A stretch of 64,000 bases of DNA from Zea mays (Eukaryota > Streptophyta > Magnoliopsida > Poales > Poaceae). Positions 8,943 through 40,126 of the stretch are shown here, one piece after another; within the stretch, counting starts at the first letter, position 1; each line of letters begins with the position of its first letter. A model generated the notes under the pieces. It was not told where the DNA came from. It saw only the letters and a list, made by a program, of their open reading frames with translations, and searched no databases. A program made the translations under genes and the position numbers. Where the stretch lies: NCBI RefSeq assembly GCF_902167145.1, contig NC_050101.1, forward strand, positions 111,133,789-111,197,788, read 5' to 3'.

Positions 8943-9465
8943 GACTGTCTTCAACGCTTGCCCCCATGTACCCCCTCCCCTATCACTGTATTCTGTTCAG
9001 GGGCTACAGTGCACCCCTAGCCCCTTCACCGGCATCCTCTTCCTCCTCCTCTCCCCTCCCAATTTCTTCTCTCTCCCGTTAAATGGATGGGCACGCTACG
9101 GCGGAGACCGTACCCGCAGCCGCTTCCTTCGCACACAAGTGCGCGCACTCGAAATACTCCAACGACGGAGCTCCACGCGAACCACGGGCGACCGAACCGC
9201 CGCCGGAGAAGGTACCCCTCGATCCGTCCTCGCCCGCGAATCGTTTGTCTTCGTCCGGCCACCTAGCAGCAGCGGGGGTCCTCCACGCGAATCCACCGTC
9301 TGGATTCGCGGACCGGCGACCCGGGCGATCCGTGCGAAGACGCCACCGCCGCTCCTCTCTGTCCGCCGGCACGTCGGCTGCGGGGTGGAGGTCAAAGGGA
9401 GGTCATCGATATGCCGACAGATCTACGCTCAACCGATCTGCGTCATTCAAGCTTCAAGGTCCAAG

Positions 9466-10351
9466 GTAAGCTTCGTCCCATCTCCATGTTCTACACCTCG
9501 GTTTCAATCCGTGTGGCAAAAAAATGTACCTTCGATTAGCACTAGGGTTTACATGTACTTAACTTATTTGAGTGCTACGATTCAAGTGTTCATCGCCTAC
9601 TTAACTTATTAGGGTTACGGTTTAAGTCCGATCTCCGATTGGGCTATTGTTTATGTACAAGAACAAAGTTTGATATTATTGTACACTTAGATCTGAACTT
9701 ATACTTAATCACGTATTGCTAACTGATCCATGCTACTCATGTACAACATTTATGCTACTTGTAGTATGGTACAAAGGAAACAACATTTGAACTGTTCTGT
9801 CATTTATCCTGTGGTTTGTATGTTGTTTGGTCTATGTTGGTGCTAGAGAAATGCATGTTAATCTTCCTATTCGAACAACTAAGTAGTAGTACCGTTAAAT
9901 TCCCCAACTGAACCCCTTGTTCCTTTCATATCCATTTCTTTGAATTGGACTAAGAACTTCTGTCTATGAATTGGACTTAGTGAACCTACAATTACGAGTA
10001 GTCTTTCCTTACATGACAAAACCATTGCATGCAACTAACGAAACCTTTACTTATTCTGTAGCTTCATAAAATTATTTGATTAGTTCACGTCCACTTCATC
10101 TAATTGAGGTTCTAAATCCTTTTTCGCTGTTGTGTGTGATTTAATGGTTTCTGTGCAACTTTAGTTTATTATATGCAACGAACATATGTACCAACAAACA
10201 GGTCAACATGTTTATATAATGTGTATACATACTTTAGCATTGTAGGGCCACAAATGTATGGTGTTTGGTAACTGATATCAACACTTTCATTTCACTAATT
10301 AGTAAAAACAGTGGCCCTAATGTTTTCATGTATGCTCCTTGTCTAGCCAAG
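9466..10351 (+). other. Probable intron within the Harbinger 5' region
   Basis: AT-rich, stop-dense sequence between a GTAAGC donor at 9466 and an AG at 10350-10351 preceded by a pyrimidine-leaning tract. No other feature seen. The intron call is inferred from phase compatibility of the flanking open frames. Confidence 0.4.
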
Positions 10352-10512
10352 GAGATTCTGCTTGAGGATAGGAATCAAGATGAGCAGCCATGATGCCAAA
10401 GTGCTGCAAAACTTGGTCCTTAATCTTGCATCCTCAGTGGAAACTCGTTCATTCAATATTAGAAGCTATCTAGAAGAAGCTTTCAGGCATTTGGGTGATG
10501 AGCATTACCTTT

Positions 10513-12115
10513 TGTCGGCGTTTCGAGACTGGGGGGGTCCCTGGGCCGACGAGTAAACTGTCGCCGCGTGCCCCAGCCCAGCTGGGTCGGCGCGAGACAG
10601 AGCATGAAGGGGGGAAACAAAGGAGGGAGACCGGCAAAAGGGGAAACCCGCGGCCTTCGTGTTGTCCTGCGCCCAGGTCGGGTGCGCTTGCTGTAGGGGG
10701 TTACAAGCGTCCGCGTAGGGAGAGAGCGAGGGACTCTACGCGTCGCCCCGTCCTCCCGTGCGGCCAACCCTCTCTAAGAGGGCCCTGGTCCTTCCTTTTA
10801 TAGGCGTAAGGAGAGGATCCAGGTGTACAATGGGGGGTGTAGCAGTGTGCTAACGTGTCTAGCGGAGGAGAGCTAGCGCCCTAAGTACATGCCATCGTGG
10901 CAGCCGGAGGGGTTTTGGCACCCGGTTCGTGTGGTGTCGTGGCCGTCGGAGGAGCGCTGGAGCCTGGTGGAGGGACAGCTGTCGGGGCTGTCAAGTCCTT
11001 GCTGACGTCCTCCTGCTTCCGTAAGGGGGCTGAGAGCCACCATCGTCATGGAGCGTGCGGGGCGCCATCATTACTTATCTGGCGGAGCGAGCCAGATGGA
11101 ACGCCGGTCTTGTTTCCCGTAGCCTGAGTCAGCTTGGGGTAGGGTAATGATGGCGCCTCCTGTTGACGTGGTCAGTCCGTGCCCTAGGTTGGGCGATGTG
11201 GAGGCTCCTCCGAGGTCGAGGTCGACTCTGTCTTCCGAGGCCGAGGTCGAGTCCGAGCCACTGGGTCGGGCGAGGCGGAGACCGTCGGCTGAGGCCAGGG
11301 CTGAGTCCGAGCCCTAGGGTCGGGCGAAGCGGAGTTCGTCGTCTTCAGGGGCTGAGCCCGAGTCCGAGCCCTGGGTCGGGCGGAGCGGAGTTCACCGTCT
11401 TCAGGGGCCGAGCCTGAGTCTGAGCCCTGGGTCGAGTGGAGCGGAGTTCGCCGTCTTCCGGGTCTTAGCCCGAGTCCGAGCCCTGGGTCGGGCGGAGCGG
11501 AGTTCGCCGTCTTCCGGGGCTTAGCCCGAGTCCGAGCCCTGGGTCGAGCGGAGCGGAGTTCGCCGTCTTCCGGGGCTTAGCCCGAGTCCGAGCCCTGGGT
11601 CGGGCGGAGCGGAGTTTCCTATGGTGCCTGAGGCCGGGCCTGACAGCCTGTCAGCCTCACTCTGTCGAGTGGCACAGCAATCGAAGCGGCGCAGGCGGCG
11701 CTGTCCTCTTGTCAGGCCGGTCAGTGGAGTGGCGAAGTGACTGCGGTCACTTCGGCTCTGTCGACTGGAGGACGTGCGTCAGGGTAAAGGTGTATGGCCA
11801 CCTTTGCATTAAATGCCCCTGTGATTTGGTCGGTTGGCGTGGTTATCTGGCCGGGGTTGCTTCTTGGCGAAGACTAGGCCTCGGGCGAGCCGGAGGTATG
11901 TTCGTCGCTGGAGGGGGGCCTCGGGCGAGACAGAGATCTTTCGGGGTCGGCTGCCCTTGCCCGAGGCTGGGCTCGGGCGAGGCGTGATCGAGTCCCTCGA
12001 ATGGACTGATCCCAGACTTAGTCGCACCCATCAGGCCTTTGCAGCTTTGTGCTGATGGGGGTTACCAGCTGAGAATTAGGAGTCTTGAGGGTACCCCTAA
12101 TTATGGTCCCCGACA
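10513..12115 (-). repeat. 3' LTR of the Huck-like element (in element sense)
   Basis: 1603 bp, TG...CA ends in element sense. It matches 22704-24254 except for roughly 2-3% substitutions (mostly transitions) and repeat-number differences. It contains a tandem array of a 56-bp unit (GGGTCGGGCGGAGCGGAGTT...) at about 11317-11612, with five full units here against four in the other LTR. A TATA-like TATAAAAGG (minus) lies near 10794-10802. Confidence 0.92.
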
Positions 12116-12132
12116 GTAGCCCCCGAGCCTCG
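12116..12132 (-). other. Polypurine tract of the Huck-like element
   Basis: In element sense the sequence immediately before the 3' LTR is CGAGGCTCGGGGGCTAC, a G/A-rich primer for plus-strand DNA synthesis. Near-copies occur further inside at 12245-12262 and 12432-12447. Confidence 0.75.
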
Positions 12133-15100
12133 AAGGGAGTGTTAATACTCGCTTGGAGGCTTTTGTCGCACTTTTTTGCAAGGGGACCAGCCTTTCTCGG
12201 TTGCATTACGTTCCGGTGGGTGCGCGCGAGCGCACCCGCCGGGTGTAGCCCCCGAGGCCTCGGAGGAGTGGTTTGACTCCTCCGAGGTCTTAATGCCTCG
12301 CACAATGCTTTGGCTGGTCTGGTCGTTCCCTCATGCGAGCTGGCCGTAGCCCGGGTGTACGGTCGGGTCCCAAGTTCTCGGGCTGGTATGTTGACGCTGT
12401 CAACGGTTTGGCCGGAGCCGGGTTTGCGAGAGCAGCCCCCGAGCCTCTGCACAGGGCGAGAGGACGGTCAGGGACATACTCGACTTTTTTACATACGCCC
12501 CTACGTCGCCTTTCCACAAGGAGGAGGGGGGGAAAGCGCCATGTTGCCCTCGGAGGGCGCCGAACATGGTGTCTCCGGTGAGCTGCTGGCGGGTAATCCG
12601 AGCGGACGTCCGTGCCCCATTTGCTAGGGGTCGGCTAGAGGCCCAGAGGCGCGCCTAAAAGTACCTGCGGGTGATCTGCCGGACCCGGTCCCCTGTCGAC
12701 GGGGTCCGAGGGCTCGATGCCTCCCTCTGATGGGATTCCGTTACAAGATCGTTCCCGCTGGTCTCGGAAATGTCCTAGGGTACCTCGGGAGCGCAGCCCG
12801 AGCCTTGGTTATGTATCGAACGTACCCATGGTCATCCCTCGCTCTGTGTCTGAGGCGGCTGCGAACCCTTCGAGGGCTAGCCTACGAACCCCTGATCAGT
12901 AGTGGGCGCGGAGCCCGAGTAGCCTGAGGCGGTCGTTGAACCCTTCCGAGGGGCCGACCTTCGAACCTCTGACCAGTAGTGGGTGTGGAGCCCACGTGCT
13001 CTGAGGCGGCTGTTGAACCCCTCCGAGGGGCCAGCCTTCGAACCTCTGATCAGTAGGGAGGCTCGGAGCCTGGTTCCTTCACGAAGAAGGATCCTTTTCG
13101 GGGTATCCCCCTTTCCCTGTCCCTGTTGCAAGAGAGAGAAAGAGGAAAAGGAAAAGGATACGAAATCGAACGACATGGCGTACCTTTTTTGACGCGGTCA
13201 TTATGGCGAAGGCGAAGCGTCGCTTGCTTCTCCTGCCAGAGGCGCTGCCTGTCCCGCCGCGGAGTTAATGCGACGGGGCGAGTGGTTCGCGGGGCAGCCG
13301 TTGCGCGTGCGCGAGCCATTCTAGGAATGGAACATGGGCGCGTCGTCTTCACGCCGTGAGAGAGGGTTCTCTCGCTGCCCCCGGATGGGACGTAAGCTTG
13401 GCTGACGACGTGACCGCTGCTCCTGCCCGCCTGCCACCGCCATTATTGTCGGCCCATTTTTGGCCGCATCGACCGTCGCGCCAGGCTGGCGCTGCTGGGT
13501 CGTGCGTAGGGTTGCCTCGAGTCACGGTACTGGTTCCGCAGTCGAGGAGGCGTGGCAGTGGCGCGGGTGGCGGTGCAGTTGCTCGCACGTAGCATCCGGC
13601 GCGCCGGTTGCATGACGCGTGGGCCTGGGCCTCCATGCTGGGCGTGTTGGATGTCGGAGAGGTGCGCCCACTTGGCGCGGTTGCATGTCGCCTGCATGGC
13701 TGCCCGCCCTTTCGCCCGCTGGTCTGGGCAAAAGTGGAGGACTGCTTGTAACCGCTGGGCGGTTGCATGCACCACGCGCAGCGGTTTGGCTTCTTCTACT
13801 CTGGGCCAGCTTGCATGACGCGTGGGACCCAGCCCCCGCTCCGTAGGGGAGGACCTTGGAGCGTGTTTGAGAAGACTCAGCCCAGGACGGCTGGGGACGC
13901 AAGTAGGGAGAGTCGCCTTTAAAAGGAGGGTGACCCCCCTTGAAAGGCGACCATGTCTTCGCGCTCCCTTATGCATCGTGTCTTTCCACCTTCCGAGCCC
14001 TCGGATGGGAGATGCCCGCAATCCTTCCGCCTTGTCGTTGGAGGGACACAACTCCGTGAGAGTCGGTACCTTTCAGCCATCGTTCGGCTTCAAGGATTTT
14101 CATCATGCAGCCCGGTTGCACCCCTTCGCCAGCGATCACCCAAGACGGTGACCTCCAGTTCGATGGCGGGGGAAAGCAAACCGGGCCGCGACCTCTGCCC
14201 CTCCCTCAGCCTCAAGGATTTTCATCATCAGTGCTGGGGAGGGGAGTGTGCCGAGTTGGGGTCGGCCCCTGCGTGGGCGGTGGCCCGCTCCTTCCCTCAG
14301 TGATCGGGGAGAAGGGCGTTCGCCGTTCGCGGCGCTGGCAGCTGCCGCGTGCCTGGCTCTCGGACCCGAGCGGCTTCGGAGCCGCTCCCGGCGCCGCCTC
14401 CCGCCACGGCAGCTGGAAGAGGTTCTTCCGCCGACGAGATAGCCGGGGCCGCCCACGAACCGACCTCCAACTCTACGGCCTTCTGCCCGTCCTTGCCTCA
14501 CGAGTTTGGGCACGGGCGGGGGCCTCATGGCAGCAGCATCCGCCCTGAGGCCATCGCTGCTGCTGTTCGGCCCCCCGGAGCAGAAGTCGTCATCGTCGTC
14601 GCTGCTGGGGCGGGTGACGGCGAGCCATCCGTCGGTCTTCTGTTACTCCGCAGGCCCCCCAATCGAGTGGGGTTGTTCGTACCTGCGGAGATGGAACCGG
14701 AGTTCCGTTTGTAATGGCACCTTGAATGCCAGTGTTTTTGTTTATTGTGGCTGTCGGGGCCTGAACATGTATGTATTTTTGGCGCGGAGCCGTGTTTTTT
14801 CCTCATTTTCGAGCACTAAGACTCGCTTGTCGATTGTCTGAACCGCTTCACCAAGCGTGAGTCGCCCCATGCAAAGGTGACAAGTGAGGTATCCGTATCC
14901 CGGAGGCGTAGGAGTCCCTCGGCTCGGTCGGCCTTGCTATCCGAGGCTTCTCTTGCTTAGTTAAAAGAACCCCTCGGCCGCTCTTCGATGAGCCGAAGCC
15001 AGGGGTAGCGGTGTAAGCGCGAACAAAGGCAGAGTTGGCTCGAAAAGAAGACTTGGTCGGCCGAAGCCTGGCCGGGTCGTCCGTTAGCGGGACTGACGCC

Positions 15101-16037
15101 GGAGTTGATCCGCCGAGGCCTCGGGCCGGGCTGATGTCTTTGGGGGACAGCTGGCCAAGGCCTCGGGTGACCAGCTGAGCCGCCTGCTCGAGCCCGACTC
15201 TGGGAGAAGACCCTGGCGGCGATGGCCCGGGCGTGATAGAGATGTTGTCCTTCAGAGTGGAGATCCTCGGACCGCGTCGCCGTCCGAGGCTAGGTCGGAC
15301 CTCGCCGAAGGTGTAGTTGACGCCGAGGGTGCTGCTGCTCCCTTCAACTGTGAAAATCCGAACCTGCAGGATTGGATTATCTTGTAGTGTGCGTTTTCTG
15401 CGGCCGCCAAGGCCCAAACACACCCTCGCCGTGTTGTAAAGCTGCACTTCTTTTCCTCTTGTTTCGAGTATCTGGACTTTTCCGTCGGTAACAGAATTGT
15501 CTGTGCGAGCGAGAGTTGCTTTTCACGGAAGGTGATGAGTGAGGTATCCATATCCCGGAGGCGTAGGAATCCCTCGGCTCGGTCGGCCTTGCCGCTTATG
15601 CGCACTCTTGCCCGTCCATAGGGTTCTGCCACCAACGCAGTCGAGAAGGCCCGAAGAATCGCTTCGGCAGAGGGGCTTTCGAGCGTGAAGACTTGTTCGA
15701 TCCGCGGAATCGCTTATCCGAACGCGAGTTACTTATCGCAGAAGGTGATGAGTGAGGTATCCGTATCCCGGAGGCGTAGGAGTCCCTCGGCTCGGTCAGC
15801 CTTGGCTGCTTACGTGTACTCCGTCGTTTTCAGGATCCACTTTCGAAGTAGTCGAAAAGCACGAAAGACATTCTAGCAGAAAGGATCTTTTTTCGAGGAA
15901 AAAATTCGACGCAGAGGGGGTTGGTTCCCCCCTTTTAGGCCCCGAGGGAGGGTCGGGCTTTGCCGAGGCAAGGCTGACCCTTCCTTGATGACTAAACTTT
16001 GCGTGGGAGCGAGGTATATGAACAACTTGAAAGCATC
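12133..16037 (-). other. Long non-coding 3' region of the Huck-like element
   Basis: GC-rich sequence between the end of pol and the 3' LTR. It holds three tandem units of about 75 bp at 12850-13075 (each with CTGAGGCGG, then CGAACC(T/C)CTGA(T/C)CAGTAG). A 63-bp unit is dispersed three times at 14874-14936, 15529-15591 and 15742-15804 (core GAGGTATCC(G/A)TATCCCGGAG). A duplicated CAAGGATTTTCATCAT motif occurs near 14090 and 14213. ORFs of up to about 150 codons exist on both strands but look like by-products of high G+C. I see no recognisable protein. Confidence 0.6.
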
Positions 16038-19000
16038 TTAAGGGTAAAAGCGACGTAGCTGTTGGATGTTCCAAGCGTTGCTGTAGACCTCGCCTTGACC
16101 GTTGGCCAGCTTTTATGTTCCAGGCTTCAGAACTTTGGCGATGACGAACGGCCCTTCCCAGGGAGGCGTGAGCTTGTGCCGCCCTCGAGCGTCTTGTCGC
16201 AGCCAAAGCACCAGGTCGCCCACCTGGAGGTCTCGGGACCGAACCCCTCGGGCGTGGTAGCGTCGCAGGGACTGCTGGTACCGCGCCGAGGGTAGCAAGG
16301 CCATGTCCCGAGCCTCTTCCAGCTGGTCCAGCGAGTCTTCTCGATTAGCTTGGTTGCTTTGGTCGGCGTAGGCCCTCGTCCTCGGGGAACCGTATTCTAA
16401 GTCTATGGGCAAGATGGCCTCGGCCCCATAGACTAGAAGGAACGGCGTGAAGCCCGTGGCTCGGCTCGGCGTTGTCCTCAGACTCCAGACCACCGAGGGG
16501 AGTTCCTTCATCCATCGCTTGCCGAACTTGTTGAGGTCGTTGTAGATCCGAGGCTTGAGCCCTTGTAGAATCATGCCGTTGGCACGCTCTACTTGCCCAT
16601 TCGTCATGGGGTGAGCCACGGCGGCCCAGTCCACCCGGATGTGGTGATCCTCGCAGAAGTCCAGGAACTTTCTGCCGGTGAACTGGGTGCCGTTGTTGGT
16701 GATGATGGAGTTCGGGACCCCAAAGCGATGGATGATGTTGGTGAAGAACGCCACCGCCTGTTCGGACCTGATGTTGTTTAGGGGTCGGACCTCGATCCAC
16801 TTGGAGAATTTGTCGATGGCGACCATCAGGTGCGTGTAGCCCCCGGGTGCCTTCTGCAAGGGGCCGACGAGGTCCAGACCCCACACAGCAAAAGGCCAGG
16901 TGATGGGTATCGTCTGTAGAGCCTGAGAAGGCAGGTGGGTCTGCCTCACGTAGAACTGACACCCTTCGCAGGTGAGGACAATTATAGTGGTGTCGGCCAC
17001 CGCTGTCGGCCAGTAGAAACCTTGTCGGAAGGCGTTTCCGACAAGGGCTCAAGGTGCGGCGTGATGGCCGCAAGCCCCCGAGTGTATCTCTCATAGGAGC
17101 TCCTGACCTTCGGCGATGGGGATGCATCGCTGGAGGATGCCTGAGGGGCTACAGTGGTAGAGCTCCTTCCCGTCCCCCAGTAAGACGAACGACTTCGCAC
17201 GTCGTGCCAACCGCCGAGCTTCAGCTCGGTTGAGGGGTAGCTCTCCTCGGTGGAGATATTGCAGGTACAAGGTCTGCCAGTTTCGATTAGGCGTGACCCC
17301 GCTTCGCTCCTCCTCAACGCGTAGTGCCTCACCCTCGGGGGTCGAGGGTACCTCGGGCTGAACCGAGGGTGCCTCGGGCCGAGCCGAGGGTGCCTCAGAC
17401 TGAGCCGAGGGTACCTCGGGCTGGGCCGAGGGTGCCTCGGGCTCGGACGTGTCGTCGATCTTGACGGAGGGTTGATGCAGGTCTCGGGAGAAGACGTTCG
17501 GGGGAACCGTTGTTCACCCCGAGGCTATTTTAGCCAGCTCGTCCGCAGTCTCGTTGTAGCGTCGGGCGATGTGGTTGAGCTCAAGCCCGTAGAACTTGTC
17601 TTCCAGGCGCCGAACCTCATCGCAGTAGGCCTCCATCTTCGGGTCGCGGCAGTGGGAGTTCTTCATGACTTGGTCGATGACGAGCTGCGAGTCACCGCGA
17701 GCGTCGAGGCATCGGACCCCTAGCTCGATGGCGATGCGCAACCCGTTGACCAGAGCTTCGTACTCATCCACATTGTTGGACGCCGGGAAGTGGAGGCGTA
17801 GCACGTAGCGTAGATGCTTTCCGAGGGGCGAGATGAAGAGCAGGCCTGCGCCCGCTCCTGTCTTCATCAGCGACCCGTCGAAGAACATGGTCCAGAGTTC
17901 CGGCTGGATCAGAACTGTTGGGAGCTGGGTGTCGACCCATTCAGCCACGAAGTCCGCCAGGACCTGGGACTTGATGGCCTTCCGAGGGGCGAACGAGATT
18001 GTTTCACCCATGATTTCCACCGCCCACTTTGCGATCCTACCCGAGGCCTCTCGGCACTGGATGATCTCCCCCAGGGGGAAGGATGACACCACAGTTACCG
18101 GATGAGACTCGAAGTAGTGTCGCAACTTCCGCCCCGTCAGGATCATTGCGTACAACAGCTTCTGAATTTGTGGGTAGCGGATCTTGGTTTCGGACAGTAC
18201 CTCGCTGATGAAGTAGACTGGCCTCTGGACGGGCAATGCATGCCCCTCTTCTCGTCTCTCAACCACAATCGCGGCGCTAACCGCCTAAGTGGTCGCGGCG
18301 ACGTAGATCAAGAGGGCTTCTCCGGCAGCGGGGGGCACCAAGATGGGCGCGTTTGTGAGGAGCGCCTTCAGGTTCCCGAGGGCTTCTCCAGCAGCGGGGG
18401 GCACCAAGATGGGCGCGTTCGTGAGGAGCGCCTTCAGGTTCCCGAGGGCTTCCTCGGCCTCAGGGGTCCAAGTGAAGCACTCGGCCTCCCTTAAGAGGCG
18501 GTACAGAGGGAGGCCTCTTTCGCCGAGGCGTGAGATGAAGCGGCTCAGAGCCGCAAGACATCCCATGACTCTCTGTACGCCTTTCAAGTCCTTGATGGGC
18601 CCCATGCTGGTGATGGCCTCGATCTTCTCCGGGTTGGCTTCGATGCCCCGCTCGGTGACGATGAACCCCAAGAGCATGCCTCGGGGTACCCCGAAGACAC
18701 ACTTCTCGGGATTAAGCTTCACGCCTTTCGCCTTGAGACATCGGAATGTCACTTCAAGGTCTGAAAGGAGGTCGAAGGCTTTCCTCGTCTTGACTACGAT
18801 GTAATCGACGTAGGCCTCGACCGTCTGGCCAATGTGTTCGCCGAACACATGGTTCATGCACCGCTGGTATGTCGCACCCGCGTTCCTCAAGCCGAACGGC
18901 ATGGTGACATAGCAGTACATGCCGAAGGGTGTGATGAAAGAAGTCGCGAGCTGGTCGGACTCCTTCATCCTGATTTGGTGATACCCTGAGTAGGCATCGA

Positions 19001-19950
19001 GGAAAGACAGGGTTTCGCACCCAGCAGTGGAATCCATGATTTGATCGATGCGAGGCAGAGGGTAGGGAACCTTCGGACATGCTTTGTTTAGACCAGTGTA
19101 GTCTACACACATCCGCCATTTCCCTCCTTTCTTTCTCACTAGCACAGGGTTGGCAAGCCATTCAGGATGGAATACCTCTTTGATGAACCCTGCCGCCATT
19201 AGCTTGTGGATCTCCTCGCCTATGGCTCTGCGCTTTTCTTCGTCGAATCGGCGCAGAGCCTGCTTGACGGGTCGGGCTCCGGCTCGGATATCCAGCGAGT
19301 GCTCGGCGACATCCCTCGGTATGCCAGGCATGTCCGAGGGACTCCACGCAAAAACGTCGGTGTTTGCGCGGATAAAGTCGATGAGCACTACTTCCTATTT
19401 GGGGTCGAGCTCGGAGCCGATTCGGATCTGCTTGGAGGCATCGCTGCTGGGGTCGAGGGGGACGGACTAAACCGTCTCCGCTGGCTCGAATTTGCCGGCG
19501 TGGCGCTTCACGTCTGGCACCTTCTTGGAGAGGCTCTCCAGGTCGGCGATGAGGGCCTCGGATTCGGCGAGGGCCTCGGCGTACTCCACGCACTCCACGT
19601 CGCATTTGAACGCGTGTCGGTACGCGGGGCCAACGGTGATGACCCCGTTGGGGCCCGGCATCTTGAGCTTGAGGTAGGTATAGTTGGGGACGGCCATGAA
19701 CTTCGCGTAGCATGGCCTCCCCAGCACTGCGTGGTAGGTTCCTCGGAACCCGACCACCTCGAACGTGAGGGTCTCCCTTCGGAAGTTGGAGGGTGCTCCG
19801 AAGCAGACGGGAAGGTTGAGTTGTCCGAGGGGCTGGACGCGCTTCCCAGGAATGATCCCGTGGAAAGGCGCAGCGCCTGCCCGGACCAAGGTCAGATCAA
19901 CGCGCAGGAGCCCAAGGGTCTCGGCGTAGATGATGTTGAGGCTGCTGCCT
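16038..19950 (-). pseudogene. pol of the Huck-like element (protease end, RT, RNase H, aRNase H, integrase)
   Basis: One frame continuous with gag. Reverse transcriptase (about 19390-18290) has the usual LxxCxDYTGLNKACPK start and FLDAYSGYHQI, but the catalytic box reads YVDY (18801-18812) where the family has YVDD. RNase H follows, with ETKIRYPQIQKLLYAMI. The second, archaeal-type RNase H (about 17900-17520) has MFFDGS, DEYEALVNGL and ETADELAK. Integrase has its zinc-finger region at about 17100-17030 and then a catalytic core in which the second aspartate is Asn (TNNGTQF, codon 16695-16697). The glutamate box GQVERANG is kept. In-frame stops lie at 19395-19397, 18285-18287, 17514-17516, 17091-17093, 17049-17051 and 16113-16115, with no frameshift. 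A 66-bp tandem duplication lies at 18320-18451. The element cannot move by itself. Confidence 0.88.
18320..18451 (-). repeat. 66-bp in-frame tandem duplication in pol
   Basis: 18320-18385 and 18386-18451 are adjacent copies differing at two bases. They duplicate 22 residues (EALGNLKALLTNAPILVPPA plus two) between RT and RNase H and keep the frame. Related elements normally have one copy here, so this is probably a later replication slip or unequal exchange. Confidence 0.9.
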
Positions 19951-22643: not shown

Positions 22644-22683
22644 CTCGAGCTTGACGGGAAGCTGTTCGTCAACACAAAGCAGG

Positions 22684-22701
22684 CCCCTACCTGGCGCGCC
22701 A
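22684..22701 (-). other. Primer binding site of the Huck-like element
   Basis: In element sense TGGCGCGCCAGGTAGGGG begins two bases after the 5' LTR end. Position and the leading TGG fit a tRNA primer site. I have not assigned the tRNA. Confidence 0.8.
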
Positions 22702-22703
22702 AC

Positions 22704-28507: not shown

Positions 28508-28511
28508 TAAG

Positions 28512-28529
28512 TGGTATCAAAGCCGTGCT
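28512..28529 (+). other. Primer binding site of the chromovirus
   Basis: TGGTATCAAAGCCGTGCT starts four bases after the 5' LTR. TGGTATCA(G/A)AGC is the usual site complementary to the initiator methionine tRNA 3' end. Confidence 0.85.
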
Positions 28530-28768
28530 GACTGTAGGACCGCTAACCTAGAGTAGAATGGTCGTTCTAAGGATTATAGACCTCTGTCTCTTCCTTGACT
28601 TTGATATCCCTTCAAAAAGTTGGTCATACTGACCAAACCTATGTTCTACTACATATTATACCTTGCTGAAAATTATGTTTTATTCTGATCCTTCATTTAC
28701 TTATGATTCATTACTTGCTGGTCATATTAATTCTGTTCTCACCCTTTTGCTTGCGATGTCTTTTGTAG

Positions 28769-29782
28769 ATGGCTCGACTTAGACACACTGCACGAAAGTC
28801 AGTCATCCCTTTCTTACCCTCCCGCCTTGCTGAGCGTCCGCTTCGCCGTCCCGTGGCCGGACAGTCCAGCCACTTGGAGAGACTACACCACCGCCTGCGT
28901 GAGGAGCAGGAGCGTCGACGACAGGAGCAGCAGAGCTCTTCCCTCTCGCTCCACCAGGAGATAGAGTCTGTGAGGAGCTGCTCCCCTGTGCTTCCTCTGG
29001 AGCCGCCCCCTGCACCACCACTGGGCGTCCCAGCTTCTGGAGTAGCTGCTGGAGGAGACCCAGACGACGGAGGTGGCGACGACAGCTCGAGCCACGACAC
29101 CGACTTCTCTGCTAACCCTGAGCCGGAAGGATGGGTTGCTCGACCCATCACTCGCGACGCTGCTCGCGGGTGTCACTTCCATGATGCGCTCGACACCCTG
29201 CTACGTCGGGCATTTGACCGGCATACTTGGTCCGTCGAGTATCGCTGTGTGGTCTACCAGCATAGTCGCGGGGTCTACCCGGACCGCTGGGAGGCGACTT
29301 GCTTGGTGCGCTGCCCGGAGGACAGTCTCCAGGGTGCAGAGGCCTGTTCAGAGCACTATTCTATCTCTGAGCGGGACTCAGCTGAGGCAGCCATGCAAGA
29401 TGCTGCACGGCGTGCGCTTTCGCACTACTGCTCGGTTTTCGGTGGGGCAGCTGACGGTCTTGACCTGAAGTATTACCCCCGCCGTTCATCTGGCAGCACA
29501 GGAGGCGTGATTGTCTCACCTGTCGGTGAGGGCAATCCTAGGTTGAGCAGCACAGTCAACCTAGCCGCCGTGCTAAACACGGAGCTGGACCATGCACTAG
29601 ACGAGCTGAGTAGGGCTCGTGCTGAGATCGCCCTGCTGCGGGCTGAGCGCGCGGAACGTCGTTATCTGGACGGTGGTTCCCCCGCTCCCGTTGGGACTCA
29701 GCACCCGTACCGCTCACCTCAGCGTGGACACCAGTCTTATGGCAATCCCGACTGCAAGACCAAGATAAACCTAGAACCATAG
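28769..29782 (+). CDS. ORF0-like leader protein of the chromovirus (337 aa)
   Basis: An intact frame between the primer site and gag, starting MARLRHTARKSV and ending KTKINLEP. An extra ORF before gag is known in rice RIRE3/RIRE8-type elements; its function is not established. The N-terminal third is Arg-rich (HRLREEQERRRQEQQ) and then Pro/Gly/Asp-rich. The middle (about residues 130-235) looks folded: FHDALDTLLRRAF, SVEYRCVVYQHSRGVYP, WEATCLVRCPED, then SAEAAMQDAARRALSHYCSV. That strand-strand-strand-helix arrangement, with an Ala-rich final helix, recalls a double-stranded-RNA-binding fold, which is my inference only. A heptad-like ELDHALDELSRARAEIALLR near the end suggests a short coiled coil. 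Confidence 0.75.
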   Translation: MARLRHTARKSVIPFLPSRLAERPLRRPVAGQSSHLERLHHRLREEQERRRQEQQSSSLSLHQEIESVRSCSPVLPLEPPPAPPLGVPASGVAAGGDPDDGGGDDSSSHDTDFSANPEPEGWVARPITRDAARGCHFHDALDTLLRRAFDRHTWSVEYRCVVYQHSRGVYPDRWEATCLVRCPEDSLQGAEACSEHYSISERDSAEAAMQDAARRALSHYCSVFGGAADGLDLKYYPRRSSGSTGGVIVSPVGEGNPRLSSTVNLAAVLNTELDHALDELSRARAEIALLRAERAERRYLDGGSPAPVGTQHPYRSPQRGHQSYGNPDCKTKINLEP

Positions 29783-30189
29783 ATCGTTAGAGTTGGATCT
29801 TGTAATTAATACGAAATAAATATATACATAGAAGCTTCAGTCTTAGCGTTAGTCTCGGTCTTAGTTAGTTTTAGTTAGACAGGGTAGTTTGCTATATCCT
29901 GTGCATTTATGTTTGTCATGATGAACTATGTTTGGTTTGGATCTTTGTAATGATTGTCACCAGAGTGTGGGTATCCCCTGCATTTTGGTTTACATACTAT
30001 GTCAATAAAGTTAGTTATATAGTTGGGAAACCCATTATTCTCCTTTCCTCTTTATCTGAGAAGCTGTGTGGTCTGTGTTGGAGATCAGTGAAGATGCTCA
30101 TCTGTTCAGTGCTGTTGGAGAATTCTATACTCTTTTCTTATGCTGCAAGCTTTGCCAGATCAGTTCTGATGTGTGGTCGCATTCTGCAG

Positions 30190-33100
30190 ATGTCAGAGAA
30201 CAGGCGTAGAGGAGGAAGGCGTGCTCAGCAGGAGCGAGCCGCTCCGCAGGATGAGGTGCCCCAGCAGCAGCACCTGCCGCCCCCGCCCCCGATGTCGATC
30301 GAGCAGATGTTTCTGATGCAGACTCAGGCAGTTCAAGCCATCGGTCAGACTCTGGCCGCCATTCAGCAGCAGCAGCAGCAGCAACAGCAGCAAGCACCAC
30401 CCCAGCCTCAGATGCCTCAGATGCCTAGAGACAAGCGTGCTGAATTCATGAGAGGTCATCCACCAACGTTCGCTCACTCTTCTGACCCCATGGATGCTGA
30501 AGATTGGCTGCGCACTGTGGAGCGGGAGTTGCATACCGCTCAGTGCGATGACCGGGAGAAAGTCTTGTATGGTCCCCGTCTGTTGAGAGGAGCAGCCCAG
30601 TCATGGTGGGAGTCTTACCTCGCCACCCATGCCAACCCCGACACCATCACCTGGGAAGAATTCAGAGGTAGCTTTCGTCAGTACCATGTCCCTGCAGGTC
30701 TGATGACAGTGAAGAAGGAGGAGTTCCTGGCCCTTAAGCAAGGGCCATTGTCTGTCAGTGAGTACCGGGACAGGTTTCTGCAATTGTCTCGCTATGCTCC
30801 TGAAGATGTCAACACCGACGCCAAGCGACAGTACCGTTTCCTGAGAGGCTTGGTTGACCCTCTGCAGTATCAGCTGATGAACCACACTTTCCCGACATTC
30901 CAGCACCTGATTGATAGAGCGATCATGACAGAAAGGAAGCGTAAGGAGATGGAAGATCGTAAGCGCAAGATCAGTGGACCCCAGCCTGGAAGCAGCAGCC
31001 GCCCTCGTTTTTCAGGCAATCAACCTCAGCAGTTCAGGCAGAACCAGCGTCCACCTCAGCAGCATCAGCAGCGTCAGCAGTATCAGCAGTTCCAAAGGCA
31101 GTATCCTCAGAATCAGTACCAGAACCGTCAGAGCAATCAGTCAGGAGGTCAGTTTCAGAAGCAGAATCAGCAAGCACCTCGCCTTCCTGCCCCAGCAAAT
31201 CAGCAGAACAGTCAGGCAGCACCAGCTCAGGTTGGAAACAGAGCATGTTTCCACTGTGGAGAGCAAGGCCACTGGGTGATGCAATGTCCGAAGAAGGCAG
31301 CCCAGCAGCAGTCAGGCCCCAATGCCCCAGCGAAGCAGAATGTGCCTCCGCCTGGAGCAGGCAACCGCCCTCAACAGCGCTATAATCATGGAAGGCTGAA
31401 CCATTTGGAAGCTGAAGCAGTTCAGGAGACCCCCGGCATGACAGTAGGTATGTTCCCAGTCGATTCCCATATTGCAGAAGTGTTATTTGATACTGGAGCA
31501 ACACATTCTTTCATTACTGCATCATGGGTAGAAGCACATAATCTTCCAATTACTACCATGTTAACCCCCATTCAAATTGACTCAGCCGGTGGTAGAATTC
31601 GAGCTGATAGCATTTGTTTAAATGTAAGTGTGGAAATAAGGGGGATAGCGTTTCCCGCCAACCTTATAGTAATGGGTACTCAGGGAATAGATGTCATCCT
31701 AGGGATGAATTGGTTAGATAAGTACCAGGCAATTATCAGTTGTGATAAAAGGACAATCAAGTTGGTGTCCCCACTAGGAGAGGAAGTGGTGACCGGGTTA
31801 GTCCCGCCTGAGCCAAAGAAAGGAAGTTGTTATCAGATGGCTGTCGATAGCAGTGAAGCAGACCCAATTGAGAGTATCAAGGTTGTGTCTGAATTCCCAG
31901 ATGTGTTTCCAAAGGATTTACCGGGTATGCCACCAGAGCGGAAAGTTGAATTTGCTATAGAGCTTCTTCCTGGAACCGCCCCTATCTTCAAGAGAGCTTA
32001 CAGAATATCTGGACCAGAGTTGGATGAACTTAAGAAGCAAATTGATGAGCTGTCAGAGAAAGGTTACATTCGGCCAAGCACCTCGCCTTGGGCCGCTCCT
32101 GTCTTGTTCGTAGAAAAGAAAGATGGTACTAAGAGGATGTGCATCGATTACCGAGCTTTGAATGAAGTCACGATCAAGAACAAGTATCCTTTGCCTAGAA
32201 TAGAAGATCTGTTCGACCAGTTGAGAGGAGCCAGTGTGTTCTCCAAGATCGATCTAAGGTCAGGTTATCATCAGCTCAGGATCCGACCTTCGGACATTCC
32301 GAAGACGGCATTCATTACCAAGTATGGTTTATATGAGTTCACAGTGATGTCTTTTGGTTTGACCAATGCGCCAGCATTCTTCATGAACTTGATGAACAGT
32401 GTATTCATGGATTATCTTGATAAGTTCGTGGTGGTATTCATTGATGACATTCTGGTTTATTCTCAAAGTGAAGAAGAGCATGCAGATCATTTGAGGATGG
32501 TATTGCAAAGATTGCGAGAGCACCAGTTGTATGCAAAGTTGAGCAAGTGTGAGTTCTGGATCAGTGAAGTCCTGTTCTTGGGTCACATAATCAACAAGGA
32601 AGGATTGGCTGTGGATCCGAAGAAAGTGGCAGACATTCTAAACTGGAAAGCGCCAACGGATGCTCGAGGAATCAAGAGCTTCATTGGAATGGCCGGATAT
32701 TATCGGCGATTCATTGAAGGGTTTTCGAAGATTGCGAAGCCAATGACAGCGTTGCTAGGCAACAAGGTTGAGTTCAAGTGGACCCAGAAATGCCAAGAGG
32801 CCTTTGAAGCGCTGAAAGAGAAGTTGACTACAGCGCCCGTCCTAGTCTTGCCCGATGTGCACAAGCCCTTCTCGGTGTATTGCGATGCTTGTTACACAGG
32901 TTTGGGATGTGTGTTGATGCAAGAGGGAAGAGTTGTGGCTTACTCGTCCCGACAGTTGAAGGTTCATGAGAAGAACTACCCAATCCATGATCTAGAGTTG
33001 GCAGCAGTGGTTCACGCACTGAAGACATGGAGGCACTATCTGTATGGACAGAAATGCGATGTTTACACAGACCACAAGAGTCTGAAGTACATATTCACTC

Positions 33101-34773
33101 AGTCAGAATTGAACATGAGGCAACGAAGATGGTTAGAATTGATCAAAGACTATGAGTTGGAGATTCACTACCATCCAGGAAAAGCGAACGTAGTGGCAGA
33201 TGCTTTGAGCAGAAAGAGTCAAGTCAATCTGATGGTTGCTCGCCCGATGCCTTATGAGTTGGCCAAGGAGTTTGACAGGTTGAGTCTCGGGTTTCTGAAC
33301 AATTCGCGAGGAATTACAGTTGAGTTGGAACCTACCTTGGAGCGCGAAATCAAAGAAGCGCAGAAGAATGATGAAAAGATCAGTGAGATTCGGCGATTGA
33401 TTCTAGATGGCAGAGGCAAAGATTTTCGAGAAGATGCAGAAGGTGTGGTATGGTTCAAAGACCGCTTGTGTGTTCCCAATGTCCAGTCTATTCGGGAGTT
33501 GATTCTTAAGGAAGCTCATGAGACAGCTTATTCGATTCACCCTGGCAGTGAGAAGATGTATCAGGATCTGAAGAAGAAATTCTGGTGGTACGGAATGAAA
33601 AGAGAAATCGCAGAGCATGTGGCTATGTGCGATAGTTGTCGAAGAATTAAGGCAGAACACCAGAGACCAGCTGGATTGTTGCAACCGTTGCAGATCCCTC
33701 AGTGGAAATGGGATGAAATTGGTATGGATTTCATAGTCGGATTGCCTCGCACTCGAGCCGGCTACGATTCCATTTGGGTAGTAGTGGACCGCTTGACCAA
33801 GTCAGCCCACTTCATACCTGTCAAGACCAACTACAACAGTGCAGTATTGGCAGAATTGTATATGTCTCGGATCGTCTGTCTTCATGGTGTGCCAAAGAAG
33901 ATAGTGTCAGACAGAGGAACGCAGTTCACCTCTCATTTCTGGCAGCAGTTGCATGAAGCCTTGGGCACGCATCTGAATTTCAGTTCAGCTTATCACCCGC
34001 AGACAGATGGTCAGACTGAAAGAACCAATCAAATTCTTGAAGATATGTTAAGAGCCTGTGCGTTGCAAGATCAGTCCGGATGGGACAAGCGATTGCCTTA
34101 TGCAGAGTTTTCCTATAACAACAGTTATCAGGCCAGTTTGAAGATGTCACCGTTTCAAGCGCTGTACGGAAGGAGTTGCAGAACTCCGTTGCAATGGGAT
34201 CAGCCTGGAGAGAAGCAGGTGTTCGGGCCAGATATTTTGCTTGAAGCCGAAGAGAACATCAAGATGGTCCGAGAGAATCTGAAGATAGCGCAATCAAGGC
34301 AGCGAAGCTATGCAGACACAAGAAGAAGAGAGCTGAGCTTTGAAGTCGGAGACTTTGTCTATCTGAAAGTGTCACCGATCAGAGGAGTCAGAAGGTTCGG
34401 AGTGAAAGGCAAGCTAGCACCCCGCTACATTGGTCCGTATCAGGTTCTTGCAAGACGAGGAGAAGTGGCTTATCAGCTCAGTTTGCCAGAGAATTTGTCT
34501 GCTGTGCATAATGTCTTTCATGTGTCTCAGTTGAAGAAGTGCTTGCGTGTGCCGGAAGAGCAGTTGCCAGTGGAAGGTCTTGAGGTCCAGGAGGACTTGA
34601 CCTACGTTGAGAAGCCAGCTCAGATCCTTGAGGTTGCAGATAGAGTCACCCGAAGGAAGACCGTCAGAATGTGCAAAGTCAGATGGAGTCACCACTCTGA
34701 AGAAGAAGCAACCTGGGAGCGTGAAGATGATCTGATGGCTAAGTACCCAGAGCTCTTTGCTAGCCAGCCCTGA
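30190..34773 (+). CDS. Gag-Pol polyprotein of the chromovirus (1527 aa, intact)
   Basis: The start chosen is [14 protein letters not shown] at 30190. The frame is open from 29932, but that upstream part is leader sequence. Domains in order: Gln-rich linker; gag capsid part (about residues 125-240; [31 protein letters not shown]); zinc knuckle [14 protein letters not shown] (about 353); protease [10 protein letters not shown] (about 433); reverse transcriptase with FIDDILVYS (about 750); RNase H ([41 protein letters not shown]); integrase with HHCC finger ([10 protein letters not shown] ... CDSCRR) and D-D-E residues ([27 protein letters not shown]); C-terminal chromodomain-like [17 protein letters not shown]. 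All visible catalytic residues are present with no stop or frameshift, so this copy may be autonomous. Confidence 0.93.
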
Positions 34774-34795
34774 ATCTCGAGGGCGAGATTCTTTT

Positions 34796-34807
34796 AAGGG
34801 GGATAGG
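34796..34807 (+). other. Polypurine tract of the chromovirus
   Basis: AAGGGGGATAGG just upstream of the 3' LTR start at 34810. Confidence 0.75.
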
Positions 34808-34809
34808 TT

Positions 34810-37533
34810 TGTAACGCCCCGAATTTTGCAGTTGAATTTTTTCTTTTCTTTACTCGCCAAAATTCGGGCGTTACCTTTTCCTTTTCTTTTTCCCCTCGCT
34901 AAACCTTGACCTTTTCCAAAGTTCTAGCGGGATTCGGTTTGGATCTCCCGTGTAGGAAAAACCCTAAATACTTTATGCTGTTTGATGCACCATGCCGAAC
35001 CTTGCATTTCTTTTGATTGCTTTGAAAGCGCAATTGCATTCATGTAGAAAGATCGGATTTCGAAAATGTGGAGAAGATCTTTTCTTTCTTTTTTCTCCCT
35101 CTCTTTTTTCTCTCCTCTTTTTCTCTCTCCCCCGCGCCGTGGGCCGACCCCGGCCGGCCCAGGCCCCTGCGCCCCCCCCTTGGGCCCAATAGGCCCAGCC
35201 GCCCCCCCCCTCTTTCCCTTATTCCCTAACCCTCTCCCTCTCCCCCCTCATTTTTTCCCTCTCTCTCCCTAAGCCGCCGCCCCTACCCCTGCCCTACCCG
35301 CCCCCTGCCCTAGGTCGCCGCGCCGCCCCCTGCCGCCGGCCGCCCCTCGCCGTCGATCCCCGACACCGGTGAGCCCCCCCTCCTCTCTCTCTCCCTCCTC
35401 CCTCTCTCCCCTCTCCTCCCTCCCCTTCCCCTCGCCGCTCGGCCCCATGGCCGGTTCGGCCGCCCGCCCCACCCCGCCGGCTCGGCCGCTCGGCCGCCCC
35501 GCGCCCTGCCCCGCGCCCTGCCCCGCGCCCCTGCGCGCCCAGCGGCTCGGCCGCCCCGCCCCCTGCTCGGCCGGCTCGGCCGCCCCCTGCGCCGCCCGCC
35601 CTCGCCAGCCCGGCCGCCCGCCGCCGGCTCAGCCGCCCGGCCAGCCCCGGCCGCGCCCGCGCCCGCGCCCCGCCTAGGGCTGGTTCAACCGCCCTAGGGC
35701 CGGTTCAACCGCCCCCCCCCCCCTTCTGTTTTTTTTATTTTTTTTATTTTATTTTATTTACTTTCTGTGATCATAATTACTGTATTTTAAGTAGGCTAAT
35801 CACTGTTCATGCTATGGGAAAATAGGAAGTTTAATTTAAAATTCCGTTATGTTATTGATTCACGTAGTTAATTGTTTACCCTGTGCAATGTTGATCAACT
35901 AAAAGTGATTAGGTTTCCATCAGTATATATAAATATATATAACAGAATTATTTTGTTAAAAACCAATTGTGTCATTAGTGCATAAGATTTAACCCCCTGC
36001 GAGACCTTTCCCCGTTTCTTTCTAACCATAACAAATGCGTTATCGAATGTCATACTTGATGCATATTCGCTTTATTTGTTATCTTGTATGGTGTACTGTT
36101 CTTTTGTATTAAATATGTGGATGTATGTATGTATGTTTGCGCTCGCATAGAGAACGATCCGGTCGAAGAGCCCGAGGAATTCGCAGGAGAAGCCCCTGAG
36201 CAGCAGTCGTTTGGTGGAGGCAAGTGTCCTTTGACCTATCTCTGTCCTATTCATTCTTTAATTCACCTCCCGCATTACACATTTATACCTAAGGATTGAC
36301 TAGCTTTTGTTATCCATGTCCTTGTTTACCTATTTGGGTCGGATTATTACTACTTAGTCTGATGCTATTGCTCAACTCTAATCAATGAACATGATGTGAT
36401 TATCTATGATACGCTGTTTTCCCGTTCTTCTTTATGATTATACTTGTGGTTTTCAAGGGGACTCGAGCGGTTTCTCGAGTGCCTCTCCGTAAGGACCTGT
36501 TCTATGGATGACCGCCCGGGAAAACAGTGCAACCATGAGGGTGGAATGGGGTGCCCTTAGCTGAATAATTAGAGGATCCGGGGTGTAGTTCACTTAGCCG
36601 TCGTGCCGTCAATGGGGCTCGGTGTATGCGGCTCGCTCTGCCAAGTTTGGGTTCGCCCCTTGGGGAGGAGTGCGGTGCATTTAGGAAACCTAACGGGTGG
36701 CTACAGCCCCGGGGAATCTTTGTAAAGGCTACGTAGTGAAACCCTGCCTATTCACCTTGGTAGTGTTTAAGGGTTTGATCGGCCCGAGGCAAGAGGGAAT
36801 CACGGCTTGTGGGTAAAGTGCACAACCTCTGCAGAGTGTTATGAAACTGATATATCAGCCGTGCTCGCGGTTATGAGCGGCCAAGGGAGCTCCAGTGATT
36901 AGTGGTACTTGATCAGAGACATTGTGGTACAGGTGGTTATGAGATTGATGGTTTTGGTTATGACTATGGTGCTGGTAAGTGGTATTCTTTCCGTTTGGAA
37001 AGGGTACATCGGGTTAATAACTTGGGTAATGCTAAAACTTGGCTTTCTACTAGTAAATAATAATCTGACCAACTAAAAGCAACTGCTTGACTTATCCCCA
37101 CATAAAGCTAGTCCACTACAGCCAAACAGGATACTTGCTGAGTATGTTGATGTGTACTCACCCTTGCTCTACACACCAAACCCCCCCCAGGTTGTCAGCA
37201 TTGCAACCACTGCTCAGGCGAAGATGAAGCTGTGGAAGGAGACTTCCAGGAGTTCCAAGATTACGACGAGTTCTAGGTGTGGGTTAGCGGCAACCCCCAG
37301 TCGGCTGCCTGTGAAGGCCGCGGTTATCTACGTTTCTTTTCCGCACTTTGATTTATTGTAAGGACTATATGGACGTCTCAGACGTATGATGTAATCGACT
37401 ATTATCCCTTTTTAATACTATTTTGAGCACTGTGTGATGATGTCCATATTATGTAACTGCTGTGTACGTGAATAACTGATCCTGGCACGTACATGGTTCG
37501 CATTCGGTTTGCCTTCTAAAACCGGGTGTGACA
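34810..37533 (+). repeat. 3' LTR of the chromovirus
   Basis: 2724 bp, nearly identical to 25802-28507. Length differences are confined to C and T/A homopolymers and a CTCCCT repeat near 35235. Ends TGTGACA, then the duplication GAAAG. Confidence 0.93.
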
Positions 37534-37955
37534 GAAAGCATCAAGGAAGAAGGCAATGTCCAGTACTTCTTAGTCCACTGACTACCTTTCAAGAATCCAT
37601 GACATTCAAATAGCAAGATTGAAGCAAAGCGAAGAAAAATCAGAGCTAAAACAACAGAATATTGAGTTCTTGAAGGAGGTTGAACTCAAAAAGTTGGAGG
37701 TTCAATCCAAGGAAATACAAATGCAGGAAAGAAGAATGTTGATTGAAGAAAGGATCCGCAAGGACGAAGAGCTGACTAAACTCTAAGCTATGGATATGGA
37801 TGCATTACAAGAAGATTTGAGAGCTGTTTACATCGCGAGGAGGAAAGGTTTAATCGAGTATTTCATCAACAATCCAGTGTGACGAGTAGTACTGTATTTC
37901 ATAATATGTTACGAACCATGTTTCAGAGTTATTTGAGTTTATTTGGAACATTTTC

Positions 37956-38026: not shown

Positions 38027-38210
38027 ATTGTAATATTGTTTGTGACAATAAGGTTAATAACTTCATAATATTATATTTGACAATCAGGTTCATTCATACA
38101 AGAGACCAAGCAGAGCACATGTGCACTTTATTTGTAACAGATTCATGACATGATAAACTACAGACATGGAACACAGAACATGCGGCCATCATAGTTTGCA
38201 GAAAAGGGCT

Positions 38211-39595
38211 TCAACCCATTGACCCTCGACGTGCCCACAGGTGTTCTATGAGGTTGTGTTGCAACAACAAATATGTCGACTGACTAGTGATGTCCTGATC
38301 GGGTTCGTTTGGTAATTCAGACCGGATATGATTGTGTAGCCACTCGTTGCGTACCTCGGGAATATTATTACAAACTTCTGGGGGGCTAGTGGGCCCAATG
38401 AAATCCACGTTTGCTGCACCATCTCCTTCGTCCTCGACAATCATGTTATGCATAATAATGCAAGCAGTCATCATCTCAGCGAGGTGAGTACGATCCCAAC
38501 CATAAGCTGGGCCATGAAGAACTGCCCACCTCGCCTGCAATACTCCAAATGCTCGCTCTATATCCTTTCGACAACTCTCCTGCTTGGTTGTGAAGTGAAC
38601 CTTTTTCTCCTCAAATGGGTGACGAATTGCTTTGACAAAGGTTGGCCAATTTGGATAAATGCCATCCGCTAAGTAGTATCCGAAATTATACGTCGTACCG
38701 TTAATAGTGAAGTTCACTGGTGGCATAGTCCAATTAAGTAACTGATCAAACACTGGTGAACGATGCAGGACGTTCAGATCATTGTTAGTACCAGGCATTC
38801 CGAAAAAGGCATGCCAAATCCAGAGGTCATACCCAGCGAGTGCCTCTAGTATCATTGTTGGCCTCGAATTGCGCCCACAAAACTGTCCCCGCCATGCAGT
38901 AGGACAGTTGCGCCATTCCCAATGCATACAATCGATGGAGCCTAGCATTCCCGGAAACCCCCTTTCGACGTTTACACTTAGTATGCGAGCAATATCTTCG
39001 TGGTTAGGGATACGGAGGTAGCGTTCGCTAAAGGAAGAGATGATTGCACGACAGAAACGGATAAGACAGTCCCTAGCCGTAGTCTGGCCAATCTGTATGT
39101 ACTCATCGACCGCATCGGTTGGTAACCCGTACGCAAGGATACGCAAAGCAGCACATACTTTTTGCAATGGACCGAGCCCAGCTAAACCTGTTGCATCACA
39201 TCGAATAGTGAAATAATCGTCTTCTTGCTGAACGGCACGAAGGATACGTAGGAATAAAGGACGATGCATCCGAAACCTAAAACCCAAAACAAAGAAAAAA
39301 AATAAGATAACGAACCTCGAAATAAAAATAAAAGTATTACTTAGGAAATGTACCTTCGACGAAAAATATGTGGTGGATACACTGGATTAGGTCCGAAGTA
39401 GTGGTGCTTGATGAGATTTTCTCCAGCAGCGTGGTCCCCTTGGATAACTCGGCGAGGCAATGAAGAGAGCCTACGACGCGTGCTCGTGGCTCCTACTCCA
39501 AGGTGGTCAACATGTTGAGAAACCAAGAAGTTATCGATCTCATCGTCAGAATCATCGGATGACGAAGACAACACTAGGCTTTTGAATGAGTCCAT
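38211..39595 (-). CDS. PIF/Harbinger DDE transposase (435 aa, two exons)
   Basis: Exon 1 is 39595-39354 and exon 2 is 39276-38211, joined across a 77-bp intron (donor AAG/GTACAT, acceptor TTTTAG/GTTTCG) with the frame kept. The start is MDSFKSLV, followed by an acidic Ser/Asp stretch. A helix-turn-helix-like segment lies around DEYIQIGQTTARDCLIRF. The DDE-4 nuclease core has the expected residues: D in GSIDCMHWEW, D in GTNNDLNVL and E in KDIERAFGVLQARW. The C-terminal CIIMHNMIVEDE is typical. No stop or frameshift is visible, so the transposase could still be functional although its partner ORF1 is broken. It is convergent with ORF1. Confidence 0.92.
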
Positions 39596-40126
39596 GACGA
39601 GCTGAACTAAGAGTATGTACTACGTACTTTTGATGGAATGGCGGATGGTAGAGAAGAGATGAGTGTCTAGATGAGTGGAGCATGCCCGCAGGGGGACCTT
39701 ATTTATAGAGATGCTTTCGGTGTGTCAAGGAAGCCAGGAGGTCGTGGCTTGCTGTAGAAGCCAGTCGTGTGGTGCAAGCCACTCGTGTCGTGTACTAGAA
39801 GAATGCGAATTTGTAATTTTTAAAATGCATAAAATTCCAACGTATGAATACTAACGTATTAATACTAATTATGAAGTTTGCTATTTAATTGTGGACCAAG
39901 TTACGACCGTGTACTGTTCATAGCACAAATAAAAATAAAAATAATATTGGATGGTAGTTGAGTTAGTTGATGGTGAAAGTATATAATATTGGTGTGGTGG
40001 GGTATAGAGGTTTGATATAGGGGGAACCGCTGTAGAGCGTGGAGATATAGGGGGAGAGAAAACGCTGACGTGGCACATGAGTGGGATATAGGGGGAGAAA
40101 TTTAGGGGGAACCGTTGAAGCTAGTC
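39596..40126. other. Transposase upstream region and right end of the Harbinger element
   Basis: It contains the presumed transposase promoter (minus direction; a TATAAATA-like AATAAGGTCC context near 39697-39712, TATAAATAAGG on the minus strand) and the right terminal region. ATATAGGGGG occurs at about 40015, 40047 and 40086 before the terminal inverted repeat. Confidence 0.6.

Follow-up and report, generated by a model that had tools for sequence, protein, structure and literature searches.

The window, a 64,000 nucleotide stretch of the Zea mays genome (contig NC_050101.1, positions 111,133,789 to 111,197,788 of the forward strand), harbors a PIF/Harbinger DNA transposon at 8943-40126. The element has been spread over 31 kb by two Ty3/Gypsy long terminal repeat (LTR) retrotransposons. 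It carries ORF1, encoding a putative Myb/SANT-type protein, a gene for a DDE transposase and, within intron 1 of ORF1, a small additional gene that we call ORF0. Based on comparison with other copies in the genome, the window copy is probably a dead member of a medium-copy maize PIF/Harbinger family with three genes, not two. The features are as follows, in window coordinates (TIR, terminal inverted repeat).

8943..40126, no strand assigned: PIF/Harbinger element, approximately 5.7 kb of own sequence in the pieces 8943-10512, 24260-25801 and 37539-40126; ends, duplications and insert-free joins seen in copies
8940..8942, no strand assigned: left target-site duplication TAA, read in the sequence
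40127..40129, no strand assigned: right target-site duplication TAA, read in the sequence
8943..8956, plus strand: left TIR GACTGTCTTCAACG, 12 of 14 bases pairing with the right end
40113..40126, minus strand: right TIR, matched to the left TIR and present in copies
40014..40120, no strand assigned: subterminal repeats GATATAGGGGGA, candidate binding sites
9083..9465, plus strand: ORF1 exon 1, homologous to the start of the maize protein P0203; 383-bp frame open in 13 of 20 copies
10380..10512, plus strand: first part of ORF0, with its ATG at 10380; 66 database relatives; codons 1-93 open in 17 of 18 copies
24260..24502, plus strand: second part of ORF0; frame shift in a C-rich run before 24423, stop at 24436-24438, family frame ending at 24500-24502
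24742..25463, plus strand: ORF1 exon 2 (putative Myb/SANT region), with a frameshift in the C-run 25055-25064
25561..25801, plus strand: ORF1 exon 3, first part, sequence and frame read
37539..37882, plus strand: remainder of ORF1 exon 3, its frame broken by two stops, near 37571 and 37784
38211..39595, minus strand: transposase gene, 435 codons open; exon 1 at 39595-39354 and exon 2 at 39276-38211 in a splice model
10513..24254, minus strand: Ty3/Gypsy LTR retrotransposon 1, in ORF0; LTRs 10513-12115 and 22704-24254
10508..10512 and 24255..24259, no strand assigned: CCTTT duplication, read in the sequence
25802..37533, plus strand: Ty3/Gypsy LTR retrotransposon 2, in ORF1 exon 3; LTRs 25802-28507 and 34810-37533, 1632-codon frame 29875-34773
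25797..25801 and 37534..37538, no strand assigned: GAAAG duplication, read in the sequence

Relatives were sought in 2.18 Gb of Zea mays sequence (655 contigs). A search with the leftmost 1001 bases of the element gave at least 78 matches, with the best 40 of 151 candidates scored; leaving the window itself aside, 39 scored places remained, and 20 of these were fetched (L009-L028). Using queries that included 200 bases of flank, similarity starts at 8925-8942 in all 20 copies, at most 18 bases from 8943, and stops at 40119-40151 in the 13 copies with a fetched right end. Twelve of these 13 have an identical 3-bp duplication on both sides (TAA or TTA in 11, TCA in one), and the remaining copy, L022, has an altered right end without a 3-bp duplication. 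A preliminary description of this DNA had proposed a single element of about 5.7 kb spread over 31 kb, with 8943 and 40126 as a TIR pair and TAA on both sides, and had predicted that relatives would end at these positions. The coordinates proved exact, the ends recur in the copies, and uninterrupted relatives of approximately 5.9-6.1 kb with the predicted ends are present in the genome. Pairing the 40 left ends with right ends (best 40 of 797 candidates scored) yielded another 14 copies with both ends, of which 10 measure 3.7-6.1 kb and four 13.4-36.5 kb; stretching, presumably by insertion, is therefore common in the family.

The ends of the window element match at 12 of 14 and 16 of 20 bases, in the 14-25 bp range given for PIF/Harbinger TIRs in PMC2213677, and the flanking TAA is the TTA/TAA type of 3-bp duplication that goes with such elements. 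In the genome copies, the 14-bp match reaches 12-14 bases in 19 of 20 and 8 bases in L011. The window contains five TAA-flanked pairs matching at 13 of 16 bases, including the 8943/40126 pair, and 2 of 19,976 random TAA pairs score as high as this pair. Within the 2-kb stretches outside the genes it scores 14 and the runner-up 8, and none of 60 dinucleotide shuffles exceeded 11. By itself, the TIR match is weak evidence for the boundaries. They are settled by the genome copies, because these share both ends, the duplications and the insert-free joins. No GTTTG-core TIR pair was found in the searched flanks, where a single GTTTG-type site lies on the right side at 40845.

The LTR pairs of the two inserts were found by self-comparison of the window. 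Each insert has an LTR pair, a 5-bp duplication, and reverse transcriptase and RNase H ahead of integrase, which places both in Ty3/Gypsy, and the perfect duplications CCTTT and GAAAG reported earlier were confirmed to the base. When the flanks are joined in silico, the site 10512|24260 is free of insert in all 18 copies that reach it (the matches of L011 and L020 end before it). The site 25801|37539 is free of insert in 16 of 18 copies, L019 having one extra base there; the match of L010 ends earlier and a deletion in L012 spans the site. Described earlier as two nested retrotransposons, the inserts are indeed both inside the PIF element, where they lie side by side and not one within the other. 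The LTRs of retrotransposon 1 have diverged by 0.027-0.033 (Kimura two-parameter distance, K2P), measured outside the repeat-rich part, and those of retrotransposon 2 by 0.0011, equal to 3 substitutions in 2704 bases. The substitution rate for LTR dating is 1.3e-8 per site per year, and at this rate the insertions are about 1.0-1.3 Myr and about 0.04 Myr old, respectively. The PIF element inserted at a TAA, a Gypsy element then entered ORF0, and a second one entered ORF1 exon 3. Retrotransposon 2 is very young, with its single open frame carrying the Gypsy domains. Nesting of this kind is an ordinary, known process that is here confirmed cleanly and dated.

The gene order within the element is ORF0 and ORF1 on the plus strand, the latter with three exons, and the transposase on the minus strand, converging on ORF1. 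The transposase matches PF04827 (1.2e-97) and PF13359 (2.6e-11) and falls with the IS5-like DDE enzymes. Its putative D, D and E positions were assigned by eye. P0203 (XP_020393744), a predicted maize protein, spans the left (exon 1), middle and right pieces of ORF1. Its match to exon 1 is 32% identity over 128 residues, partly low-complexity, with an E value of 7e-11 in a single comparison. This exon, starting at 9083, lies further left than the preliminary description had noticed. The Myb_DNA-bind_5 matches of ORF1 itself fall under the curated cut-off; P0203, its relative in maize, exceeds the cut-off for PF14303. The window copy of ORF1 is disrupted by retrotransposon 2, the C-run frameshift and the two stops. 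Among the 18 copies carrying ORF0, ORF1 is found in 17, the transposase in 17 and both in 16, in agreement with the earlier claim that ORF1 and transposase belong to one element. Both retrotransposons had been described as interrupting open frames that resume after the duplication; the first of these frames is the third gene, neither ORF1 nor transposase.

ORF0 encodes approximately 125 amino acids between exons 1 and 2 of ORF1, and is present in 18 of the 20 fetched copies. Over the 93 codons and 18 copies compared, the ratio of nonsynonymous to synonymous substitution rates (dN/dS) is 0.29 (bootstrap range 0.16-0.51), and the two shifted frames give 1.19 (0.60-2.96) and 1.72 (0.84-4.78). The tail ELYEASDNDSYDSDRSTRYSIWNL, read in the ELYEASDN frame, gives 0.07 (0-0.37) in 15 of the 18 copies (L015 was excluded manually, and the pattern did not capture L024 and L025), and 1.5 and 6.5 in the other frames. 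The tail was also tested in a second way. Thirty of the 66 database proteins use the most frequent alternative frame, and of the 22 kinds of change among them, 16 are silent when read in the ELYEASDN frame, where the expected silent share is 23-34%. Comparison of the copies thus shows protein-level selection on the predicted ORF0 product.

Joined across the insert, ORF0 has 66 database relatives among 67 candidates, many of 125-135 amino acids; the 66 include P0062, the chimeric frame of the window itself. All are under jgi, ena or lgn and named hypothetical protein at most, and none of the 66 is under ncbi, uniref or nr, in a search limited to shared short exact words. A genome search with ORF0 (best 150 of 333 candidates scored) gave at least 41 rows at 75% identity or more over residues 1-125, 38 of them without a stop, and at least 42 rows at 31-36% identity, 41 of them without a stop. 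Three of the latter, picked by hand (L029-L031, family 2), show the order ORF0, ORF1 and converging transposase, with identities of 31-34%, 46-52% (main match) and 68-72%, respectively. Their ORF0 tail is SDSDRSTRNSYWN, and a TIR-like GACTGACTGCARCG lies upstream, preceded by TCA, TAA or TTA; no right end could be located for family 2 in these three loci. Locus L032 is intermediate, with unchanged order and identities of 56% for ORF0, 57% for ORF1 and 75-82% for the transposase (two main matches in different frames). By comparison, at least three maize PIF lineages retain a predicted ORF0 at an unchanged position, and this constant order across diverged lineages points to a long association of ORF0 with the transposon clade.

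Some further observations were made on these loci. At C2:144864676/144870951 and at C5:193111595/193117902, two ORF0 homologues with matching orientation lie 6.3 kb from each other and are possibly tandem elements. A common longest-contig value of 22,205 had been considered as a link between ORF0 and ORF1 (chance 0.003 at lengths of at least 10 kb, 0.35 at all lengths) and was superseded by the genome copies; a value of 2,112 common to ORF0 and the transposase came from different sources, the comparison covering 59 transposase lengths out of 120 rows. No relatives of ORF0 or the transposase were confirmed in viral or bacterial/archaeal contigs, and none of the transposase were found in plasmids.

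In an AlphaFold2 model, ORF0 consists of two long helices (residues 3-36 and 41-68), a short third helix and a low-confidence tail; the helical hairpin has block-mean values of the predicted local distance difference test (pLDDT) of 91-98 over residues 11-60. The conserved motif of the C-terminal tail is DSDRSTRYSIWN. Five ORF0 proteins scanned against Pfam-A gave no match at the curated cut-off, and among solved structures the best Foldseek E value was 0.53 and the best profile E value 0.17, both noise.

As the favoured role, we infer that ORF0 may be a small protein with an accessory function in the transposition complex. Transposase and ORF1 would carry out cut-and-paste transposition at TWA sites, like their counterparts in other PIF/Pong elements; the ORF0 hairpin would dimerise or dock on ORF1 or the transposase, and DSDRSTRYSIWN would bind a partner. 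Lying inside intron 1 of ORF1, ORF0 would require a separate transcript. A 15-base stretch, CTTGTCTAGCCAAGG, is invariant in 17 of 18 copies and has an acceptor-like AG that ends 33 bases upstream of the ORF0 ATG, and the mRNA would come from exon 1 alternatively spliced to the CTTGTCTAG acceptor upstream of the ATG or, alternatively, from a promoter within intron 1. Going further, and tentatively, this grass PIF/Harbinger clade may be a three-protein system in which ORF0, a hairpin with a DSDRSTRYSIWN tail, is needed for or controls transposition; we hold this at somewhat below an even chance. That estimate also covers, jointly, the production of ORF0 from within intron 1 and its divergence to approximately 31-34% identity between lineages.

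Several observations weigh against a three-gene family with a working ORF0 protein. L010 gave no transposase match and L012 no ORF1 match. The bootstrap ranges of the shifted frames are wide and include 1. In the better-preserved copies, dN/dS is 0.087 for the transposase (7 sequences) and 0.067 for ORF1 exon 2 (8 copies), with ORF0 at 0.30 and 0.27 in the same sets, three to four times as high. The uncorrected synonymous difference of ORF0 is 0.14-0.16, versus 0.26-0.28 for ORF1 and transposase in the same copies. Given the higher dN/dS and the halved synonymous difference, some of the constraint may lie at the DNA or RNA level and not on the protein. About half of the copies (L009-L028) are out of the conserved tail frame and three frames are in use, because the length of the C-run differs between copies. 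Finally, L033 carries an open ORF0 (2162-2530, 55%), but neither ORF1 nor transposase was matched by tblastn in the 8.2 kb fetched; its DNA matches the middle piece of the element to about 25,154. L033 could be a degraded element or a retained gene. As a separate observation, the uncorrected synonymous difference in the set of L013, L017, L021, L025-L027 and the window is 0.155 for ORF0 and 0.275 for the transposase, and an overlapping RNA or DNA constraint is possible.

That 8943-40126 is a chance composite with ends from different elements has practically no probability left: the TIR match is not rare by window statistics alone, but it is refuted by uninterrupted copies that have both ends, carry matching duplications and run through the joins without an insert. 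An ordinary two-gene PIF element, with ORF0 as a fossil or a captured fragment of a host gene in intron 1, would agree with published PIF elements, which have ORF1 and transposase only in the portions available of PMC5543537, PMC6327408 and PMC4482050. Against this, ORF0 is selected as a protein and has an unchanged position in three lineages whose transposases have diverged, and we regard the two-gene explanation as improbable. Capture of a host gene was rejected as the origin of ORF0, since none of the 66 relatives retrieved through shared short exact words, the window's own included, bears a name beyond hypothetical protein and conservation across lineages speaks against it.

A further possibility is that ORF0 is an alternative N-terminal part of ORF1, the hairpin being fused by splicing to the Myb/SANT protein. 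A site AAG|GTCAGA in ORF0 is phase-compatible with the ORF1 acceptor AG|A ATG, as judged by eye from the letters. However, ORF0 is conserved beyond this site up to a stop just after WN(L/I), also in the 31-34% relatives, and P0203 runs exon 1 directly into ORF1. We consider such a fusion unlikely, if slightly less so than the two-gene element, and continue to prefer ORF0 as a separate accessory protein.

Other transposons lie to the right of the element. The stretch 43536-45375 has transposon remnants matching PF13963 and PF02992, which we take to be of the CACTA type. Close by are an imperfect palindrome of 1.08 kb (41372-42453) and a 108-bp tandem repeat (43037-43360). A Copia retrotransposon with approximately 95% identical LTRs occupies 53948-62699. 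Similar Copia elements start at approximately 6266 in L029 and 6443 in L030, near the 5' end of the transposase, possibly due to an insertion preference. The idea that family 2 elements travel with Copia, suggested by the right flank common to L029 and L030, was rejected because the Copia start joins the PIF sequence at two different points.

The literature cited here by PMC number was available as partial text, to which our statements on it are limited. PIF elements are described there with at most two genes (PMC2213677, PMC4482050, PMC5543537, PMC6327408). The window family departs from this two-gene picture of PIF/Harbinger, which is the usual description and not a strict requirement. In common with ZmPIF, OsPIF2, MtPH and PePIF1, it has a TTA/TAA 3-bp duplication, a DDE transposase, a putatively Myb/SANT-type ORF1 and a size of approximately 4-6 kb; unlike them, it has the additional conserved ORF0. 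ORF1 and transposase are convergent in the window family, whereas they are head to tail in PePIF1 in the text seen of PMC6327408. The GACTGTCTTCAACG TIR lacks the GTTTG core usual for the PIF TIRs given in the available parts of PMC2213677 and PMC6327408, as does that of AtPIF2. Nested insertions, Gypsy included, that lengthen PIF elements are already published for the Medicago MtPH elements (PMC2213677); these have different TIRs, and the available text mentions no third gene. Maize transposon nests (PMC2773423) are likewise built of LTR elements inserted into one another, the oldest lying at the base, as far as the accessible part goes, whereas a DNA transposon whose genes can still be read forms the base of the window nest. 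Among the papers listed by searches of the open-licence literature, none was found to report a third PIF/Harbinger gene; a subscription paper or Repbase entry may exist.

Transposition of PIF/Harbinger elements is modelled on two proteins, and a conserved third gene in abundant maize families would alter this picture for the clade. In addition, ORF0 may provide annotators of transposable elements with a marker protein that Pfam-A misses.

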